Part shown: positions 5,542 to 17,236 of the stretch, in pieces | Position numbering within the stretch: position 1 is the first letter of the stretch | How the letters are laid out: every line of letters begins with the position of its first letter | Origin: Nitrospira sp. | GTDB lineage: Bacteria > Nitrospirota > Nitrospiria > Nitrospirales > Nitrospiraceae | Direction of reading: 5' to 3' | DNA length: 64,000 nucleotides | Assembly (NCBI GenBank): GCA_030123565.1 | Contig: CP126122.1 | Location: 3,672,800-3,736,799, forward strand | Made by a program: the position numbers and the translations under genes | The notes under the pieces: generated by a model | Told to the model about the DNA's origin: nothing | The model's database searches: none | What the model saw: the letters and a program-made list of their open reading frames with translations, nothing else

Positions 5542-6063
5542 TCAATCAGGTCGTGGCTGGTCTGGTGGATCGCCCGGTGTCGCAGTCACGCTGTCGTTTC
5601 CGCCATGCCGGCGGCGAAGCTCCTTCTTGTACGCGCGACGTTCTTCGGGCGACATGCTCTGAAATTTTTCCCGCAACGCCTTACGCTGTTCGGGCGGTAA
5701 GGACCTGAACCACCGCCTGGCATTCCTGACAGATTCGCGCTCTTCAGGCGGGAGTTGGCGAAATCGCTGATACCGTTCACGCAGTTGTTGCTGCTGCTCA
5801 GGCGATAATGTCCGCCATTCTTTGAACCGTTGCTTCGCCTCTTGCCGCTCCTCCGGCGTCATCGTTCCCCAGCGCTGCGCCCCATTGCGCAACCGTTCCT
5901 GTTTACGCGGCGGCAACTGATCCCAGCTGTCGCTGAAACGCTCCAGCAGTTGCTGCTCACCGGGACTCAACTGACTCCAAGGCACGCCGGCCGGGTCGCC
6001 TTGCGCCCAGGCAGAGGCCGCCCCACATCCCAGCACTAACAGGTACACAATGAGCATTTTCAT
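5542..6063 (-). CDS. DUF3106 secreted protein
   Basis: This encodes 173 residues with a signal peptide (cleavage likely after SAWA). The mature part consists of repeated short helices built on LSPEQQQQLRERYQRF-like units: LSPGEQQLLERF, MTPEERQEAKQRF, LSPEQQQQL, LPPEERESVRN, LPPEQRKALREKF and MSPEERRAYKKEL. This is the DUF3106 pattern. Its role is unknown; such repeats resemble periplasmic Spy-type chaperones. It is the last gene of a minus-strand cluster behind an ECF sigma factor and a short membrane protein, an arrangement known for DUF3619/DUF3106 genes in other bacteria. Confidence 0.85.
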   Translation of the reverse strand: MKMLIVYLLVLGCGAASAWAQGDPAGVPWSQLSPGEQQLLERFSDSWDQLPPRKQERLRNGAQRWGTMTPEERQEAKQRFKEWRTLSPEQQQQLRERYQRFRQLPPEERESVRNARRWFRSLPPEQRKALREKFQSMSPEERRAYKKELRRRHGGNDSVTATPGDPPDQPRPD

Positions 6064-6093
6064 GGGCCGGTCGGCATCCTCATCGCAACGGGC

Positions 6094-6453
6094 CTAGCTG
6101 GTCGCGGCGGGACGGTCGGCCAGCCAGTCATAGAATTCGAGATCTTCCGACAGTTCGATATTTTCCGGCGATTGCACCAGTTCGAGATCTTCGAGCAGCA
6201 GGAGATGCGAATGGTTCACCCCGCCGGAGAGCGACAGCCACATCGTGAGGGCCAACGCAGCCATCGATGCCAACGCCGCTCCACCGGCCCACAGGAGCCA
6301 AGGTCGCCGGCGCGATGGCTGATCCAGCGCATGCCGCCGCGCGCGCTGCACCAGCAACACCGTCTTCGGATCAAGATCCTGCACACTGTGATCGAGCAGA
6401 CGTTTCGCCGCTGCCGCCAACGTATCCGCCTGCTCGTCCGACCGTTCACTCAT
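6094..6453 (-). CDS. DUF3619-like membrane protein, probable anti-sigma factor
   Basis: This encodes 119 residues. The start ATG at 6453 overlaps the stop of the sigma-factor gene (ATGA). The N-terminal half is helical and cytoplasmic (LAAAAKRLLDHSVQDLDPKTVLLVQRARRHAL split over two helices). One membrane helix lies at about residues 50-68. The C-terminal tail is acidic and contains EDLEFYDWLADRP, a motif I associate with DUF3619. Position directly behind an ECF sigma gene suggests a membrane anti-sigma factor, but no zinc motif is present, so this function is inferred from context. Confidence 0.65.
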   Translation of the reverse strand: MSERSDEQADTLAAAAKRLLDHSVQDLDPKTVLLVQRARRHALDQPSRRRPWLLWAGGAALASMAALALTMWLSLSGGVNHSHLLLLEDLELVQSPENIELSEDLEFYDWLADRPAATS

Positions 6454-7067
6454 GGCCAATGCTCCCCCAATCGCTTTCTCAAGACCTGGACGGCGCGAAA
6501 CAAATGGGTTTTCACGCTGCCTTCCGAACAGCCCATGGCCTGCGCCGTTTGTGCCACATCCAGTTCCTCCCAGACACGCAGGAGAAAGGCCTGTTGTTGC
6601 CGCAGCGGAAGGGCGCGCAATGCGACATCCAGCGCCGCACAGGCACGCTTGCGCTTCAGGTCTTCATCCGGCGCTACTGCGGCAACATCGGGAACCTGTT
6701 CCAGCGGATCTTCCCCCTCCTCGTCATTCTGCGGGCCGCCGAAAAATTCCCGGAGACGGTTCCGTACCCTGGTCCGGCGATACCAATCACGAATGCGGCT
6801 CTGCAGAATACAGTGAAAGAGCGGCCCCCACTCCCCTTCAGTCCGGTCGCCATACTGTTGAACCAATTTCAACATGGCGTCTTGCACGAGGTCCAGCGCC
6901 TCGTCCTCATTTCCCGTGGCAATGTGAGCCATGCGGAACGCACGCCGTTCAATCCCCACCAGGAATCGATCCAATGCCTGGGTTTGATCCAGAGGTCCCA
7001 CCCTCTCACCCAGGCAAAGGCTGCCGGGTTGTTCATCAACGGCTATATGGGGATGCCACCTGCTCAC
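6450..7067 (-). CDS. ECF-type RNA polymerase sigma factor
   Basis: This encodes 205 residues. Region 2 runs from about residue 34 to 100 (FLVGIERRAFRMAHIATGN, then DEALDLVQDAMLKLVQQY, the helix contacting core polymerase). Region 4 at about 143-200 has the HTH LPLRQQQAFLLRVWEELDVAQTAQAMG followed by SEGSVKTHLFRAVQVLRKRL. It should direct polymerase to promoters of its own cluster. It is translationally coupled to the DUF3619-like gene and followed by the DUF3106 gene. The acidic linker between regions 2 and 4 (EEGEDPLEQVPD) is somewhat long. Confidence 0.92.
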   Translation of the reverse strand: MSRWHPHIAVDEQPGSLCLGERVGPLDQTQALDRFLVGIERRAFRMAHIATGNEDEALDLVQDAMLKLVQQYGDRTEGEWGPLFHCILQSRIRDWYRRTRVRNRLREFFGGPQNDEEGEDPLEQVPDVAAVAPDEDLKRKRACAALDVALRALPLRQQQAFLLRVWEELDVAQTAQAMGCSEGSVKTHLFRAVQVLRKRLGEHWP

Positions 7068-7416: not shown

Positions 7417-10400
7417 CTACTTGACCCTATTCGATTCGGCAGGCCGCTTGCCGGCAGCCCATGAGGTCGGAGGAATCTGCACCACCAGATCGAACCGTTC
7501 TTGCGCTTCATTGTCCTTGAGGTCCGGTCCGACACTATAGAGAGTTCCCTTCTTCATATTGACCAGCATCGGGAATCCCGTAAAGGGATCGTAAAGGCCC
7601 TGTCCTGCCTTTGCAATCCTGGTGAGCAGATCCTGTTCCGGTGGAGTCCGGCGGAGCCAGGCTTGCAAGGACGCCAGGCGCAAACGTGCATCTGTTTCCA
7701 GTACTCGACCGGCATAGGTCTCCCAGGTCGGAAGCGGATCGATTCCGACGAGGCTCTCGATAGGATCGACGAGTAGGTCGGTCAGGCCGTACGGCGGCGT
7801 ACGTACAAACTGGGATTGCTTCGGGAGGTCCGCAACCCGGCCTTCTGCCGCAGCCTTGCCGGCGGCCTCGTAATATTCCGCATAGGCATTGAACAGGCGC
7901 TGTCTCGGCAACGGCAGCGAGGCGGCAATCGAGGCATAGAACGGACGGCTATCGGCCTTGTCCCGCTTCAGGCTCTCATCCAATGTCTTGACGGCCAGCA
8001 TGAACCGGCTCTGCATCGGCCAACGAACCGACTGCTCGGCCTGATCGAGCGGCCGCGCGAGCTTGGCCAGGCGGCTCACCAGCCTGTCGTCGAGATCCGG
8101 CCGTAAGAGCAGCCCACCCAACAGGACGACATCCTCATTGAGCGCGTCACTGGCCAGCATTTTCAGCGGCAAGGTTTTGGCCTGCCCCAATACCGTCCGC
8201 CAGGCTCCAAGATCGGTTTCGAGCCGCCCGATTCCTGCCTCCACATCCTGCGCGAATCCTTCCGCCACATAGAGTCGATGGGCATGGAGGATCAAGCCGC
8301 AGTTCGGACTGACCGCTTGCCCATAACCCCAATCCTCGAACGGCATGGTGAGCCACTGCCGATACCGGCCCATGGAAACCTCTGCCTGCGCCACCCATGA
8401 CTTCACACCGGTTGCCGACATCCGCATCTGGGCAGCCGGATCGACTCCTTTCAGCCACTTACCCAACACCTCGGCCGACGCACCCTGCGCACCTGAGACA
8501 TTTCCAGCCCCCATCAGACAGTTGTCGGTGAATGTCCGATCGGCCTCTTCGGCTCGTCGATCCATTCCAGCCTGCAGGGGGTCCTGGGTTGTGACAGCAC
8601 CGAAGCCGAGGAGGAGGAAGTAGCCGTTCCTGCCGGGTTCCTGCAACGTGTGTTGCGGTACCGCCGTCATGTTGTGATAGGCCGAGGTGGGTTGCTCTTC
8701 AAGGACCAGCCAGGTCAGGGCGATTCCACCGACGGCGCCGGCCATGAGAACCAACATAAGACCGATCAGGGCCAGGACCGAGATGACCAGCGAGCGTGTC
8801 GTCGAACAGGCGGCGCTCACGATGGACACCGCAGCCTGACCGATACGGTGCAAGCCCCGACCTTCCGCCTGCTTTCGCGGCTTAGGCTGGACAAATGAAG
8901 CTTCCACCGCAACCGGCTTCGCCTTCCCCGGCTGATCCACGGGGCTCTCCGCAACAACCGTAGTCGCCTCCTGTGGATCGACCAAGGGCGGGGCGGCAGA
9001 AGGTACTGGTTCTTCATGAGGCGGTGCCGGATGGTCGGCTTCAACAGGAGAGACAGGCGCAGGCTTCTTCAGCCAGCGCGTCAGCATGTTCCCGGTTGAG
9101 GCGCTCAGGGCAGGGGCCGATTGGGAGTTGTCCCACAAAATCCGAAGGCTTCCATCTGCAGCAGGCTCGGGAGCTGCCTGTGCCGCTGCAGTCGGCGCTT
9201 GTGCCTCGACAGCCGAAACCGGCTCGACCGACACAGTCAACTCCTCGGCGGCAGGGACAACGTGGGCAGCCTGTATCGACTCGACGAAAGGCAAGGCCGG
9301 CTCTTCCCGTAACACATGGGCCGATGCAGCCGATTCACCAGGCTGAGACCCTCCGACACCACAGGCAATGGCCTCCGGCATGGAGGAGACACTCTGCGTC
9401 ACCGGCGAAACCTCCGGCCCCGACGCCATGAGCGACCCATCCAATGGAGCGTCCGCCGGAGAAGTTTCACCCGATTCGGCCGGTACAGTCGATTGATCTG
9501 CCGGGAGAGCAGGCGTAACCGAAAATACCGACGATTCGGCAGCGGTCTCCTGGGTGATGGAAATCGTTGACTCATGGCTCGGAATCTGACTCACTGGTTG
9601 GTCGACCGGGACAGTCGGCTCCGAGAGCGCCGTTTCTGCCGATTCAACTACGGAAGCCTGGATTCCTTGTACAACTGTCTGTGCCAAGGCCAGCGGCGCC
9701 ACATCCATGGTTGCCGTCATGGCGGACTCGGCCGGCACTTCGACAGGCTGCTCACTGCGCTCCTCATGTCCTGGTGCCGCCATCGATTCATTCAGGGTCA
9801 GCCGGAACGGGCGTTCCGCAGACAGATCGATGGTTGATAGGGTCGGTCGGTCGCTTTCAGGCGGGGCAACCGGCGCCGGCTCTTCGACCGGTGCGATCGC
9901 CTCCACAGGAATATGGATGGGTTGTTCGCGCGGCTCGACCGGAGCATCCGAAGAAAGGATGCGAAACTCCGTTGTCGAGGGTACGTCCACATGAACGGGG
10001 CTGTCGGCTGCTATGACATCTGGAGGAACCGCCGTAACAGGCGCTGGCTCCCGACCCTCCGGCAAACTAAACAGGACCATGGTGGGACCGGAGTCTCCGC
10101 CGGCAGAACCGGAATGGACCGGCCCGAATTCCGGTTCAGGGTCCGGTCGTGGAATCGACACATTATCGATTTCGACCTGCTCCCAAGGCATGGGGGCAGA
10201 AAGGGGCGGGGCATCTCCGACTGAGATCCCGAAAGCACCAGTCGCCGGGTCAGCGAACGACAAAGAGCCAGTCTCTGAGGAATCAGCAGGCGGAGAGGCA
10301 GCCCCTGTCTCTTCAGGCAAAGTGCCCTCAGAAGAGAGGCCATTCTCTGCGCTCGACAGGTTCTGAGTAGGCGGGGGCGAAGCTTGCATCGCCGTGACCG

Positions 10401-11916
10401 CCGCCAGGATTTCTTCCCAGGTAAGCCCTGACGAGGTGATTTCTGAAGGGACCGGTGCAATGGGCGGCGCAACCGGCGCTTGGCCAATCGGAAGGTCCGT
10501 TGCGGGGGGCTCGACTACCCTGTCGGCCTCAACCGCCTCGATGTCGCGCTTCAACTCGTCAATTGCCGGCACCCCACTCACCGATTCTTCGACTTGGTCC
10601 CAGGGCATCGGCGCCGGACTCGCGGGCGGTTCTGTGATTGGATGGACACTCGCCTGCGTGAGCACTTCAATCGGCTGCTGCGATTCCTCTACAAGAGGCT
10701 CCAGAGGATGTTCTGTCTCAATGGGAGCAGCAGGAACCGCCTCGGCTGTAGCATACCCCTGGCTGTCTGTCGCTGAGGGAATTTCAGCCACCACATCTTC
10801 AATCTGATCCCAGGGCATGGGGGTCGGACCGGCCGGAGCTGCTGCAATCGGATGGGCCTCGGCCTGCGTGAGCACTTCGAACGTGGGAGATACTGTCTCC
10901 ACGACGGGCGTGGGAAGGTCGGCCTCCACTGGGGCAGCAGAAGCTGCCTCGACCGTTGTCGGCACCGGACTGTCTGCCGCTGCCGAGATCCCCGCGACAG
11001 CTGAGGGCCCACCCTCACCGAGAGTCTGCCGCTCCGACGTCGCAAACGAATCAGCAGACGGCGTGGCCGCGGTCGGTTCAGGTAGGGCCTCTTGCCGTGC
11101 TTCTTCCGTGATCGACTGGATCGAAACAGGCGCAGCACCAGCGCCCACCCTCTCGGACAAATCACCTACAACTGGGACCGGCACCGGTTCTTGAGGACTG
11201 TCGGCCGGGGTCTCAGTCGGCGCTGTCTCCACCTGTTCCCATGGCATGGCGGCCGCCGCTGAATGGTCCGCCGGAGGCTCCGAATGCGGTGGCGGTGACT
11301 CATGTTCCGAATCGACTACCGCCGACGGAGGAGTAACCTGTAACATTTGCCCCGTCACGGTATCGAACATGGCTGCGAAGCGGAAGGCGACCGGACTTCC
11401 TGGGGCAAGCGAACGAATCTTGCCGAAGAGGTCGCTGGCTCGGTTCGGGTTATCGCTGTCCGGATCTTCCAGCAACACCTCGATCGCCTTGCCGTACTCC
11501 GCCACCGCCGCCATGACGTCGCCCTTGTCCTCGTACACATGCCCCAACATTTCCAAGAAGGGAACGCAGCGAGGTCCTGCAGTCAGGTATTCCCGCAGAA
11601 GCGATTCCGCCAGCCAATAGTCCTGCCGCTCCATGGCCTCGCGAGCCAGCGATTCGAACGCCGCCCTGGCGCTCATGAGGCTGCCGAGTCGCAGGTGGAG
11701 GGTGGCAAAAAGGCGCCGGGCTTCGGCATTGAGTGGGTCGAGCGCGAGCAGGTCTTTCAGCACAGTGGACGCACGGCCGTATTTGCCTGCGTTCATTTGT
11801 GTAATGGCGTCTTCGAGGAGGGCCGACTTTTTGTTATAACCGACGACTCCCTTTTTCTGGACCTTCGCCGGTGTTTTTTTGTCGGATTTGAGGGGGGTTT
11901 TCTTATCGGATCGCAC
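7417..11916 (-). CDS. Very large TPR protein with disordered linker and single membrane helix
   Basis: This encodes 1,499 residues. Residues 1-25 are Lys-rich and contain the near-repeat KSDKKTP. About 29-185 form TPR-like helices (AGKYGRASTVLKDLLALDPLNAEARRLFATLHLRLG split in two repeats). From about 190 to 1040 the chain is Pro/Val/Glu/Ala-rich and surely disordered, with four copies of the motif MPW[ED]Q[VI]E. A membrane helix lies at about 1048-1072 (LIGLMLVLMAGAVGGIALTW). The remaining 425 residues are a folded, probably periplasmic domain with no family I recognise. The layout recalls FimV-like scaffold proteins in reverse. Function unknown. Confidence 0.85.
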   Translation of the reverse strand: MRSDKKTPLKSDKKTPAKVQKKGVVGYNKKSALLEDAITQMNAGKYGRASTVLKDLLALDPLNAEARRLFATLHLRLGSLMSARAAFESLAREAMERQDYWLAESLLREYLTAGPRCVPFLEMLGHVYEDKGDVMAAVAEYGKAIEVLLEDPDSDNPNRASDLFGKIRSLAPGSPVAFRFAAMFDTVTGQMLQVTPPSAVVDSEHESPPPHSEPPADHSAAAAMPWEQVETAPTETPADSPQEPVPVPVVGDLSERVGAGAAPVSIQSITEEARQEALPEPTAATPSADSFATSERQTLGEGGPSAVAGISAAADSPVPTTVEAASAAPVEADLPTPVVETVSPTFEVLTQAEAHPIAAAPAGPTPMPWDQIEDVVAEIPSATDSQGYATAEAVPAAPIETEHPLEPLVEESQQPIEVLTQASVHPITEPPASPAPMPWDQVEESVSGVPAIDELKRDIEAVEADRVVEPPATDLPIGQAPVAPPIAPVPSEITSSGLTWEEILAAVTAMQASPPPTQNLSSAENGLSSEGTLPEETGAASPPADSSETGSLSFADPATGAFGISVGDAPPLSAPMPWEQVEIDNVSIPRPDPEPEFGPVHSGSAGGDSGPTMVLFSLPEGREPAPVTAVPPDVIAADSPVHVDVPSTTEFRILSSDAPVEPREQPIHIPVEAIAPVEEPAPVAPPESDRPTLSTIDLSAERPFRLTLNESMAAPGHEERSEQPVEVPAESAMTATMDVAPLALAQTVVQGIQASVVESAETALSEPTVPVDQPVSQIPSHESTISITQETAAESSVFSVTPALPADQSTVPAESGETSPADAPLDGSLMASGPEVSPVTQSVSSMPEAIACGVGGSQPGESAASAHVLREEPALPFVESIQAAHVVPAAEELTVSVEPVSAVEAQAPTAAAQAAPEPAADGSLRILWDNSQSAPALSASTGNMLTRWLKKPAPVSPVEADHPAPPHEEPVPSAAPPLVDPQEATTVVAESPVDQPGKAKPVAVEASFVQPKPRKQAEGRGLHRIGQAAVSIVSAACSTTRSLVISVLALIGLMLVLMAGAVGGIALTWLVLEEQPTSAYHNMTAVPQHTLQEPGRNGYFLLLGFGAVTTQDPLQAGMDRRAEEADRTFTDNCLMGAGNVSGAQGASAEVLGKWLKGVDPAAQMRMSATGVKSWVAQAEVSMGRYRQWLTMPFEDWGYGQAVSPNCGLILHAHRLYVAEGFAQDVEAGIGRLETDLGAWRTVLGQAKTLPLKMLASDALNEDVVLLGGLLLRPDLDDRLVSRLAKLARPLDQAEQSVRWPMQSRFMLAVKTLDESLKRDKADSRPFYASIAASLPLPRQRLFNAYAEYYEAAGKAAAEGRVADLPKQSQFVRTPPYGLTDLLVDPIESLVGIDPLPTWETYAGRVLETDARLRLASLQAWLRRTPPEQDLLTRIAKAGQGLYDPFTGFPMLVNMKKGTLYSVGPDLKDNEAQERFDLVVQIPPTSWAAGKRPAESNRVK

Positions 11917-12340: not shown

Positions 12341-13165
12341 ATGGGCCATATCGTCATTTTCACGGATCTGGATGGAAGTCTACTCGACGCAACCACCTAT
12401 TCCTACGAGGCTGCCGAGCAGGCGCTTACGGCCATTCAACAGCAAGGCGTGCCGCTCATCTTGGTGTCGAGCAAGACCCGTTCGGAGATAGAACCACTCC
12501 GCCTTCACCTGGACAATCACCATCCCTTTATCGTGGAGAACGGGGGCGCGCTGTTCATTCCAAGGGGCTACTTTCCCTTTCCAGTCGGTCACGCGACAAC
12601 CAACGCGGACTATCAGGTCATTGAGATCGGAACACCCTATGCCACGCTGCGGACTGCGCTGAAAAAAATCGGAGAGATTCTCGGTTGCCGGCTTCGAGGA
12701 TTTGGAGACCTGTCCGCCGAAGAGGTCGCGAGGCTCACGGGGCTGTCACCAGCCGATGCCCTCTTGGCCAAACAGCGGGAATATGATGAGCCTTTTGTGG
12801 TCGAGGAGCGGGTGATCTCCTGGAGCGATCTGCTGCGGGCTGCGGACACGCAGGGTCTGCGCTGTACGAAAGGGGGTCGGTTTTATCACTTGATGGGATC
12901 GAACGATAAGGGAACCGCCAGCAAGCTGCTGGCGCAGTATTATCGGCGGCTTGCGCAGGCTGCAGGGCACAGCTTGACGACCATCGGCCTTGGAGACAGT
13001 CTCAACGATCTTCCCCTCCTGGCAACGGTGGACTATCCCATCCTCGTCCAGAAGCCGGACCGTTCCTACGATCCGAACGTGCACCTGCCCCATCTCATCC
13101 GTGCCGATGGGATCGGCCCGGTGGGGTGGAACCGAAGCCTCATCGACCTTCTGTCGACCCTCTGA
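12341..13165 (+). CDS. mpgP: Mannosyl/glucosyl-3-phosphoglycerate phosphatase (HAD-IIB family)
   Basis: This encodes 274 residues. Motif I is FTDLDGSLLD with the nucleophile Asp9 and acid/base Asp11. Motif II is LVSSKTR. The family-specific FIVENGGALFIP segment follows near residue 65. Motif III is CTKGGRFYH and motif IV GLGDSLNDLPLL. This combination is that of the MPGP/YedP family, which removes phosphate from mannosyl- or glucosyl-3-phosphoglycerate to give the compatible solute mannosyl- or glucosyl-glycerate. AAGGAG precedes the start. A GT81-like glycosyltransferase two genes downstream on the other strand supports this role; which sugar is used cannot be told from sequence alone. Confidence 0.85.
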   Translation: MGHIVIFTDLDGSLLDATTYSYEAAEQALTAIQQQGVPLILVSSKTRSEIEPLRLHLDNHHPFIVENGGALFIPRGYFPFPVGHATTNADYQVIEIGTPYATLRTALKKIGEILGCRLRGFGDLSAEEVARLTGLSPADALLAKQREYDEPFVVEERVISWSDLLRAADTQGLRCTKGGRFYHLMGSNDKGTASKLLAQYYRRLAQAAGHSLTTIGLGDSLNDLPLLATVDYPILVQKPDRSYDPNVHLPHLIRADGIGPVGWNRSLIDLLSTL

Positions 13166-14263: not shown

Positions 14264-15565
14264 TCAGCTGGCATGGGGCTCATTCCACCGTGCCACCAGA
14301 TAGGACTTGTCCTTTTCAAATGCCTGACAGAGCGCTTCGATACGCTCCTCGGCCTCGGTCGAGGTGAGGCCCTGCGTATCCAACACGAACGAGGCGGTCC
14401 GCCCCAGGTACAAGGGGGTGAACGCCTTCAGCACGTGATCGAGCGGCAGCACGCGATTGCGATAGGCCACGGCCGCATCGTAGACGACCCGCGCCCACAG
14501 ACTGTCGGCGATGCGAAAATCCTGCAACGAACAGGTCCCCAGCGGCAGGAGACTCTGTCTGGTCCCGGGGGCGAGAATCTGATCCCAAATCGTGCCCAGA
14601 TCGCTCAGGCCCTGTCGAAAGGTGCTGATCATGCGATCGACGTTGACGTTGACCGGTTCGACCCCCACTTCGTACTGAAATCCGAATAACGGCACCACGT
14701 TCGAGCCTTCCATTTTGGCCCAGACGGCATAGTGGTCTTCCATCAGCGCGAAGACCGCGCCCAGCACCTGGACCAGCATCGCGGACAGGTCCGCGGCCGG
14801 ATCCTTGGGATTGTGGATCTTCGCACCCAGAAAACTTTGACAGACCCGAGCGCCGCTGGCAATCGCTTCCGTCGTCATCCAGATGTCGATGCCGAACTTG
14901 GCCACTTCCGATTCCCACACATGCTTGTCCAGATAGTGCTGGGCCAAGTGGCCGGAAAATCCGAAATCCCCGCCGATGGGCTGCCTGATTCGATGGCCGT
15001 ATAGGGTCCGCGTCAGCGGATACACGATGCTGTTCGTGATGGTCCCATCGTATTTGTGGCGCAAATAGTAGGGCGCGACATAGTCGAACCCCTGTTCGAA
15101 CACCGGACTCACCAGCAGTTCGATCCATTCCGGCGTGATGCTCCGCAGATCCGAATCCACGACGGCACAGGCCTTCGCTTTCAACCGGCGCGCGATTTCA
15201 AAGATGGTGCGAAACGCGCTCCCCTTGCCGGGGATGCCGTGATAGGGCGTGATGATCTTGTGAAGCGAACTCTGCTGGTCGCCGATGAACAGCGTCTTGA
15301 GGTCGACCACGGCCTGCGCCACGACCTGCTGCGTGCCGTCCGTCGAGCCGCCGTCCGAGTTCACCAAGACCGCGCGCGCCTGCGGAAAGTATTTGGCCAG
15401 GCCGGCACTGACCGCCCTGACGACATGGCCGATCGTTTCGACATTGTTGAAACTGGGAATTCCGACCAGGATGTCCGTGTGGGCGAATTGATCGACCTGC
15501 GCTTCAGTCTCAGGAGTCAACGGAGTGGTATGGACCGCGGAGGAAAGATTGGGACCAGGCGTCAT
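14264..15565 (-). CDS. GT81-like glycosyltransferase, candidate glucosyl-3-phosphoglycerate synthase
   Basis: This encodes 433 residues from the ATG at 15565. The GT-A fold begins with DILVGIPSFNNVETIGHVV near residue 31, followed by VNSDGGSTDGT. PGKG lies at 112-115 and the metal-binding DSD at 137-139 (AVVDSDLRS). PGKG-x-DSDL is typical of glucosyl-3-phosphoglycerate synthases (GT81), which couple NDP-glucose to 3-phosphoglycerate. The protein is longer than the roughly 320-residue mycobacterial enzyme, with an additional helical C-terminal domain. With the phosphatase at 12341 it would complete a two-step glucosylglycerate route. The longer upstream frame to 15697 lacks a ribosome binding site and I rejected it. 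Confidence 0.75.
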   Translation of the reverse strand: MTPGPNLSSAVHTTPLTPETEAQVDQFAHTDILVGIPSFNNVETIGHVVRAVSAGLAKYFPQARAVLVNSDGGSTDGTQQVVAQAVVDLKTLFIGDQQSSLHKIITPYHGIPGKGSAFRTIFEIARRLKAKACAVVDSDLRSITPEWIELLVSPVFEQGFDYVAPYYLRHKYDGTITNSIVYPLTRTLYGHRIRQPIGGDFGFSGHLAQHYLDKHVWESEVAKFGIDIWMTTEAIASGARVCQSFLGAKIHNPKDPAADLSAMLVQVLGAVFALMEDHYAVWAKMEGSNVVPLFGFQYEVGVEPVNVNVDRMISTFRQGLSDLGTIWDQILAPGTRQSLLPLGTCSLQDFRIADSLWARVVYDAAVAYRNRVLPLDHVLKAFTPLYLGRTASFVLDTQGLTSTEAEERIEALCQAFEKDKSYLVARWNEPHAS

Positions 15566-15796
15566 ACATACACTCTTGCAGGCCTCCGCCCTCGTGACCC
15601 GTCGATCATGGGCGCAAACTGGGCCGGCGAAAGGCCGATGGCTGCGACAATGTCTCTCAAAGTAAGAGACACTATATCGCCCGACGATGTCAAGCAATCC
15701 CGGAGCGACGATGTCTGTCTCAGGGTGTCGTGTCCTGCCAGTCCGGAGTCTGGATGAAGACGGTGACGCGGTCGAACGGAGGAGGTACCGAAACGG

Positions 15797-16162
15797 TCAG
15801 TCGGCGTCTGAAATCACGATCTGTTCTTTGCGGTCGCTGCTGAAAGGGGGAGTCGTTGCATTGGCGCTGACGAAGGCATTCAAACGAAGTTGGTCGTCGG
15901 CATCCATCAGGATGGGATCGACCCCGAGGCGTGACTCACTCGCCCATCGTATAGTCGCCAACCGCACGGAGAGAGGTTTGGGCTGTCCGGGAATATGCAG
16001 ATGAAGCTGAAGCAGGTCCCCCGCTTGCAATCCCTTGAGCCCTGTCCGTGACCATCCTGGAATCGAGAGATCCAGCATCCGGCCGTTCCAGATCAACAGA
16101 CCGTCTTCGGAACGCGATCCGGTGCACTCGACGATAAAACGCGGGCGATTCTGTGGTTCCAT
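15797..16162 (-). CDS. Small PilZ-like domain protein (copy 1)
   Basis: This encodes 121 residues. I start it at ATG 16162 because GAGGAA lies just upstream and the chain then begins directly with PQNRPRFIVECTG. The remainder shows the PilZ beta-barrel pattern: NGRMLDLSIPGWSRTG, G..GDLLQLHLHIPGQ, and SVRLATIRWASESRLGVDPILM. The canonical c-di-GMP motif RxxxR...D/NxSxxG appears as R-P-R-F and D-L-S-I-P-G, with the first part weak, so nucleotide binding is uncertain. It is the first of three similar genes on this strand. Confidence 0.7.
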   Translation of the reverse strand: MEPQNRPRFIVECTGSRSEDGLLIWNGRMLDLSIPGWSRTGLKGLQAGDLLQLHLHIPGQPKPLSVRLATIRWASESRLGVDPILMDADDQLRLNAFVSANATTPPFSSDRKEQIVISDAD

Positions 16163-16357
16163 CCATTCCTCCGAGCAAACGCCTCGGCAGAATATGAAAA
16201 ACAACGGATGGCCCGGTAGTCCCCGAAAGGGGGGATCTCCGGTGATGGCGCCGTGACACTCTTCGAGGATAGCCGGTTCTCTGCGAAGGGAGCCGGTCAA
16301 GATCGGGCGAAACGAGGGGACCGGACAGATCGAATGTGAGGAGGGAGAACACGCAGA

Positions 16358-16702
16358 TCAGGCGACACGAGAAGAACCCGCTGCCTTGAGCATCGATTCA
16401 ACAAACTTGTGAATACGCGCTTCCGCGGTGGCACTCATATTCACGGTCTCGAGACCGAATGCACGATCTTTTACCCACTGCACCGTCACCCCTTCGATAT
16501 CGATGGCCTTGGGCTGATCGGGCAAGAAGACGCGCAGCGTGAGGGTCGCACCGACCGTGACCGGCTTGTCCCCTTCGATCCGCCAGCCCTTCACGGAAAG
16601 GTCACAGACCTTGCCGGTTCCGACAAGACCCTCCCCCAGGTAATAGAGGAAACAGCTCACGGGCACCCGGGAATGCGAACGGGCTTTCAGCGGTTTGGCC
16701 AT
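16358..16702 (-). CDS. Small PilZ domain protein (copy 2)
   Basis: This encodes 114 residues. It has the PilZ elements R..SRVPVSCFLYYLGE, then CDLSVKGWRIEG (the DxSxxGxR motif) and LRVFLPDQPKAIDIEGVTVQWVKD, ending with FGLETVNM. HSRVPVS supplies the N-terminal arginine, so c-di-GMP binding is plausible. The protein has only this one domain and presumably acts by binding a partner. It is similar over its whole length to the neighbours on both sides. Confidence 0.8.
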   Translation of the reverse strand: MAKPLKARSHSRVPVSCFLYYLGEGLVGTGKVCDLSVKGWRIEGDKPVTVGATLTLRVFLPDQPKAIDIEGVTVQWVKDRAFGLETVNMSATAEARIHKFVESMLKAAGSSRVA

Positions 16703-16861
16703 GATTCGTGGCGAGGAAGTTTCGTATCGCGGGACTCCGGCCTCGACTACGGTCTAGTCTACTCATGCCGGAAGAGATGGCAAAGAATATTCCGTTTCTC
16801 ACCGCAGCCGCCGAACAGGATCAGACAGAGACAGGACGAATGAAACCGGAGAGGGACAGGG

Positions 16862-17236
16862 TCACACGAGGGTCGTCACAAACTGTTCGAGCCGAGCCTG
16901 CTCATCGGCCTTGATCGAACCGACTTCGATGCCGAATTCCTGCCCCCGCGACCAACGCACGATCGCGCGATCGACGAAGACGGTGGGGTACTGGCCGGGA
17001 AGAAAGACACAGAGGGTGAGTACCATGCCGGGCGCGACCGGCTGTGTCCCATCCACCCGCCATCCGTTGAGCGACAGATTCCAGGCCGTGCCGGTCCCTT
17101 GGAATTCATCACTGGAGTAATACAGGGAACAACGGACGGGGAAACGGCGGAACGACCGCAGGTGAAATCTGGTGCGAGGGAGCGCGGGCGAACGATGTAG
17201 TGTGAACGAAGAGATCTCCTTGCCGCCACCGGTCAT
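16862..17236 (-). CDS. Small PilZ domain protein (copy 3)
   Basis: This encodes 124 residues. The core reads FRRFPVRCSLYYSSDE, then WNLSLNGWRVDGTQPV and LCVFLPGQYPTVFVDRAIVRWSRGQEFGIEVG. Residue for residue it is closest to copy 2 (SLYY, NGWR, VFLP.Q, V.W). The N-terminal 20 residues are unlike the other copies. The gene ends the conserved chromosomal block: 37 bases beyond its start lies the left attachment repeat of the integrated element, so any promoter lies within that short gap or in the element. Confidence 0.78.
   Translation of the reverse strand: MTGGGKEISSFTLHRSPALPRTRFHLRSFRRFPVRCSLYYSSDEFQGTGTAWNLSLNGWRVDGTQPVAPGMVLTLCVFLPGQYPTVFVDRAIVRWSRGQEFGIEVGSIKADEQARLEQFVTTLV

Follow-up and report, generated by a model that had tools for sequence, protein, structure and literature searches.

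A membrane protein with tryptophan motifs in Nitrospira

We analysed a 64,000-nucleotide stretch (the window) of the 4.6-Mb genome of Nitrospira sp., contig CP126122.1, focusing on a gene for a large membrane protein. A reading made from the letters alone, hereafter the sequence-only reading, had described a 1,499-residue scaffold with four short MPW[ED]Q[VI]E motifs in a disordered stretch between a tetratricopeptide repeat (TPR) domain and a membrane helix. The open reading frame (ORF) proved to be real. It lies on the minus strand, a detail absent from that reading; the plus-strand reading of 7417-11916 is broken by many stops. The GTG start appears plausible because an N-terminal V-R-x-[DN]-K signature is kept in nearly all relatives. 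The features of the gene and of its surroundings are collected in Table 1.

All four motifs were found as described, in a linker that changes fast. Across 26 aligned orthologues, mean column entropy reaches 1.82 bits in the linker, against 0.67 in the C-terminal domain and 0.25 in the TPR domain, and the motifs stand out as conserved islands. Nitrospira linkers contain on average 4.04 copies of MPW[DE]Q (range 1-5), compared with 0.0000 in composition-preserving shuffles. At the DNA level, a search of 29 Nitrospira genomes with the corresponding pattern yields 115 matches, of which about 110 lie within this gene; the reversed pattern, used as a control, gives 0 or 1 match per genome. The codons of the motifs vary at their wobble positions, with many variants in use, while the peptide is kept. 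Thus, judging from codon usage, the motifs are clearly under selection at the peptide level. We considered and rejected a family of other MPW[DE]Q carriers, as the roughly five scattered matches outside the gene in the 29 genomes are near chance level.

The alignment of orthologues had been set beforehand as the test of these motifs. The gene is present in 27 of the 29 Nitrospira genomes, all of which keep the motifs, as well as in most sampled Nitrospiraceae. Conservation therefore holds within Nitrospira, but the motifs become sparser outside the genus: linkers of other genera contain on average 1.53 copies of MPW[DE][QH] (range 0-3; 0.0005 in shuffles), and keep 0 to 5 copies of the looser [ML]PW[DE]. 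Motif 1 is the best preserved between genera, with M224 to E227 conserved at at least 90% in an alignment of 41 sequences.

The description of short motifs in an otherwise drifting chain needs one correction: motifs 2 and 3 are not isolated but belong to a tandem repeat of about 70 residues. Comparable units were detected in four other species (z about 10-24), with a spacing of usually 68-74 and up to about 100 residues, and variation in the number of these units accounts for the differences in motif copy number. A second motif is centred on tryptophan 500 (W500), which is invariant across the 41-sequence alignment, one row of which (L101) looks force-aligned at this position. Of 45 linkers, 43 contain a recognisable form of the surrounding [FLM][ST]Wxx[IVL][LF] pattern, and in these alignments the W500 motif is more universal than the MPW motifs. 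LWD[ND], counted as a genome-wide word, did not rise above its control.

Our AlphaFold2 (AF2) model of the N-terminal part covered residues 1-600. Most of residues 200-600 have a predicted local distance difference test score (pLDDT) below 50, in keeping with the proposed disorder. The score rises locally, to block means of 61 at motif 2, 66 at motif 3 and 60-65 at motif 4, and to 78-85 over residues 491-510, where a helix is predicted at 500-512. Neither the W500 helix, the repeat origin of motifs 2 and 3 and the third conserved island (Table 1), nor the TPR paralogue and the stand-alone domain relatives described below, figured in the sequence-only reading.

Table 1. Positions in the window of the gene, its features and its neighbours.
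Feature	Residues	Window positions	Strand	Basis
Whole gene, GTG start	1-1499	7417..11916	-	ORF, orthologue search
Basic N-terminal tail	1-28	11833..11916	-	isoelectric point (pI) 10.4, net charge +9 (residues 1-33)
TPR domain, predicted cytoplasmic	29-190	11347..11832	-	Pfam TPR_19, AF2 pLDDT
Acidic, fast-drifting linker	191-1042	8791..11346	-	entropy, charge, AF2 (residues 1-600)
Motif 1, MPWEQVE	224-230	11227..11247	-	sequence, 41-sequence alignment
Two tandem repeat units of about 70 residues, with motifs 2 and 3	about 310-449	10570..10989	-	self-alignment, z = 19
Motif 2, MPWDQIE	367-373	10798..10818	-	sequence; inside tandem repeat
Motif 3, MPWDQVE	437-443	10588..10608	-	sequence; inside tandem repeat
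W500 helix, second motif (ITSSGLTWEEILAAVTAMQASP)	493-514	10375..10440	-	alignment, pattern, AF2
Motif 4, MPWEQVE, in longer conserved island 571-596	576-582	10171..10191	-	sequence, alignment
Third conserved island (LRILWDNSQSAP...STGNMLTRWLKKP)	924-953	9058..9147	-	alignment
Single transmembrane (TM) helix	about 1043-1071	8704..8790	-	hydropathy; net charge +5 over residues 1011-1042
Predicted extracytoplasmic all-helical domain	1072-1499	7420..8703	-	AF2; Foldseek against PDB, nothing at E<=0.001
Sigma factor, small single-TM protein, DUF3106 (directly downstream)		5542..7067	-
HAD phosphatase		12341..13165	+
GT2		14264..15697	-
Three adjoining small genes, one confirmed PilZ, two that look alike		15797..17236	-

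The N-terminal domain matches TPR_19 at 26.5 bits for a Pfam cut-off of 25, which places it in the TPR clan. Its pLDDT is mostly above 90 over residues 31-180, and the model matches solved TPR structures at E<=0.001 (Foldseek). Its sequence is almost frozen between genera, and its invariant basic residues include R48, K54, R67, R68 and R76. The linker is rich in Ala, Pro and Glu, with a pI of 4.05 and a net charge of -104 over residues 191-1010; in Nitrospira linkers, acidic residues (Asp and Glu) make up 16.6% and basic ones (Lys and Arg) 2.9%. The TM segment is the sole hydrophobic helix in the protein. As basic residues precede it and the N-terminus does not resemble a signal peptide, the TPR domain and the linker are predicted to be cytoplasmic and the C-terminal domain extracytoplasmic.

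The C-terminal domain was modelled confidently from 52 aligned relatives (pLDDT 86.4, predicted template modelling score 0.87) as an almost wholly helical structure. It has no Foldseek match in the PDB at E<=0.001 (best E 0.11), and the best VIA score against the PDB, Z 6.7, is one that generic helical arrangements also reach. Searches against Pfam, NCBIfam and a PDB sequence profile gave nothing credible, and those against viral models no match. On the strength of the model, its fold corresponds to none that we recognise, which falls short of proving a new fold. Of 395 Nitrospirota genomes sampled, 105 contain the domain; 102 of these belong to the Nitrospiraceae and three lie elsewhere. Other phyla were covered by one pattern-seeded contig scan, whose matches are all labelled Nitrospira, Nitrospiraceae or Nitrospirae.

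A possible docking hub in the cell envelope

We consider it an even call that the protein is an inner-membrane scaffold that serves as a cytoplasmic docking hub, working like the FimV/HubP proteins. The protein would be held in the envelope by its helical outer domain together with the TM helix, and the long acidic arm would display the W500 helix and several copies of MPW[DE]Q[VI]E on the cytoplasmic side, starting with the highly conserved TPR domain and its basic tail. Clients would dock on the motifs, on the TPR domain or on both, and several weak sites per chain would provide avidity.

Several features favour such a hub. That the peptides are conserved in an acidic, unstructured chain which otherwise drifts suggests that the motif array likely represents multivalent docking sites. 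In this respect the docking proposal of the sequence-only reading fits the data, although docking itself and the partner remain matters of inference. AF2 confidence rises locally at motifs 2 to 4 and at the W500 helix in a linker otherwise mostly below 50, and copy number shifts by units of about 70 residues, as expected for an array tuned in valency. Furthermore, the acidic linker resembles the cytoplasmic regions of FimV/HubP (PMC12918733), the TPR domain is nearly frozen across genera, the single TM helix has its basic flank on the N-terminal side, and the gene is widespread in Nitrospira and the Nitrospiraceae. In the library searched, we found no literature on a FimV-type or TPR membrane scaffold in Nitrospira.

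Other observations weigh against the hub. The gene is absent from two Nitrospira genomes, G027 (97% complete) and G024 (89% complete). The motif does not recur in other proteins, and thus gives no pointer to the side that would bind it. Finally, a 974-residue orthologue (L102:2849-5770, plus strand) with a short linker has neither an MPW nor a W500 motif. It has lost every MPW copy and most of the linker and yet retains the TPR and C-terminal domains; hence, the rest of the protein can be kept without them. This orthologue represents a natural deletion variant for functional comparison.

What the motifs bind could lie close at hand. A TPR paralogue of about 640 residues (located at L053:2702-4600, minus strand), 34-41% identical to the TPR region, is found in nearly every Nitrospira genome searched. 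The motifs might bind to the TPR domain of the protein itself or to that of the paralogue, in the manner of kinesin light chain (KLC). In cis, the arm would fold back for auto-inhibition; in trans, molecules would be linked into a network. We regard this explanation as rather doubtful, though the scaffold reading can accommodate it as a special case. The motif pattern, a hydrophobic residue at p-2, W at p0 and an acid at p+1, fits that of the kinesin W-acidic ligand TNLEWDDSAI (PMC6214655), and because of this resemblance to KLC-bound W-acidic peptides the own or paralogous TPR domain is the first candidate partner. The strong conservation of the TPR domain and its invariant basic residues point the same way, and the fold neighbours of the modelled domain include the TPRs of LGN and KLC, among them KLC2 with a W-acidic peptide. 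Nevertheless, fold similarity among TPRs is generic, and the Z scores of 13-14 obtained for helical repeats may reflect only a common arrangement. In the AF2 model of residues 1-600, the MPW motifs are not placed confidently. They also differ from the kinesin example at two positions, with Pro instead of Glu at p-1 and Gln instead of Asp at p+2.

We also compared relative rates. In the motif-less L102 orthologue the TPR domain has diverged only slightly faster than in its sisters (0.266 vs 0.213-0.236), which is mildly against an exclusive pairing of motifs and TPR, and L056, which has one motif, shows no relaxation of its TPR domain. The ratio of TPR to C-terminal domain divergence is higher where motifs are fewer, a trend confounded by clade. 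Since the relative rates reveal only a small effect in L102 and no effect in L056, TPR-motif co-evolution was rejected.

Gene neighbourhood and stand-alone relatives

In Nitrospira loci a strongly conserved gene order was found, namely three PilZ-type genes, GT2, an MscS-type TM gene, the HAD phosphatase, the gene described here, a sigma factor, a small TM protein and DUF3106. The PilZ-type genes keep their order upstream of the GT2 and MscS-type genes across Nitrospira. From Pfam-level support, our guess is that the HAD phosphatase and GT2 form a glucosylglycerate synthesis pair.

The downstream cassette raises the prospect of an envelope sensor whose outer domain would probe the periplasm and whose arm would sequester or release regulators, feeding the adjoining sigma factor. 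In Nitrospira, all loci with enough downstream sequence have the cassette after the gene. Of the whole neighbourhood, it is the only part seen in other genera, where it was found in 5 of 19 loci. However, this synteny is largely that of one genus, whose members share most of the region in any case, and the cassette was not seen in the other 14 loci, whose flanks are short. The small single-TM protein next to the sigma factor is a possible anti-sigma factor, but it has no Pfam match. We consider a sensor distinctly unlikely.

In several other genera the domain also occurs in a stand-alone form of about 480 residues, composed of the TM helix and the domain, with no Pfam family. A distant stand-alone sequence had no match on plasmids by tblastn. 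Eight loci of the stand-alone gene were examined, and in seven of them (L118, L119, L120, L121, L125, L020 and L021) it adjoins BtuF-like and BtuC-like genes, which makes its product a candidate accessory of a cobalamin or metal-chelate importer. That the domain of the long form is likewise an accessory of a BtuFCD-type importer, coupled to the cytoplasm by the arm, is very improbable, as no importer genes of this kind lie near the long form and many genomes, including all sampled Nitrospira, have the long form only. The evidence for both the sensor and the importer comes from gene neighbourhood only.

Comparison with known systems

Little work has been done on cell organisation in Nitrospira, a major group of nitrite oxidisers. 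A conserved envelope hub with countable docking motifs would, if real, provide a handle on it, and would mean that a second phylum has realised the FimV/HubP principle with other components. Defined peptides could serve as baits for the partner (SAPMPWEQVEIDN and SSGLTWEEILAAVTAMQ). The extracytoplasmic domain may qualify as a new Pfam family and is a candidate for structure determination.

FimV/HubP proteins, the polar landmarks of gammaproteobacteria, combine a single TM helix with a long acidic cytoplasmic region, a cytoplasmic TPR and an extracytoplasmic domain; the cytoplasmic region of HubP has imperfect repeats and is largely unstructured (PMC12918733). The Nitrospira protein shares the single TM helix and the long acidic region, placed on the cytoplasmic side from its charge. 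In contrast, the order is reversed, with the TPR domain at the N-terminus, the extracytoplasmic domain is unrelated, and tryptophan motifs are present. No LysM was found in the protein or in 52 C-terminal domains scanned singly, whereas Pfam LysM was detected elsewhere in the genome. TIGR03504, the C-terminal TPR of FimV, was found neither in the protein (NCBIfam, E<=0.1) nor anywhere in its own genome. FimV_core matched in no control genome either, which makes its absence uninformative. The lack of LysM and of the FimV TPR family, together with the reversed order, rules out membership of the FimV/HubP family.

The likeness to SgmX, a regulator of type IV pili in Myxococcus, comes down to a partial match of the paralogue of the same genome to the SgmX model (NF052243), at 114 bits far below the cut-off of 1800, and TPR arrays resemble one another; the protein itself has no match to this model.

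In KLC, the W-acidic ligand binds in the groove of the TPR (PMC6214655). The Nitrospira protein likewise has a TPR domain and a similar motif in a disordered chain. KLC-type acids on both sides of the tryptophan, such as in EWD, were not found, the Nitrospira motifs being acidic on the C-terminal side only. Moreover, unlike in KLC, motif and TPR share one chain, and any likeness would be convergence. In its boldest and rather improbable form, such convergence would yield a bacterial W-acidic-motif/TPR system, in which a hub anchored by a helical domain of unrecognised fold would switch or cross-link itself through 1 to 5 MPW[DE]Q motifs binding its own or its paralogue's TPR domain.

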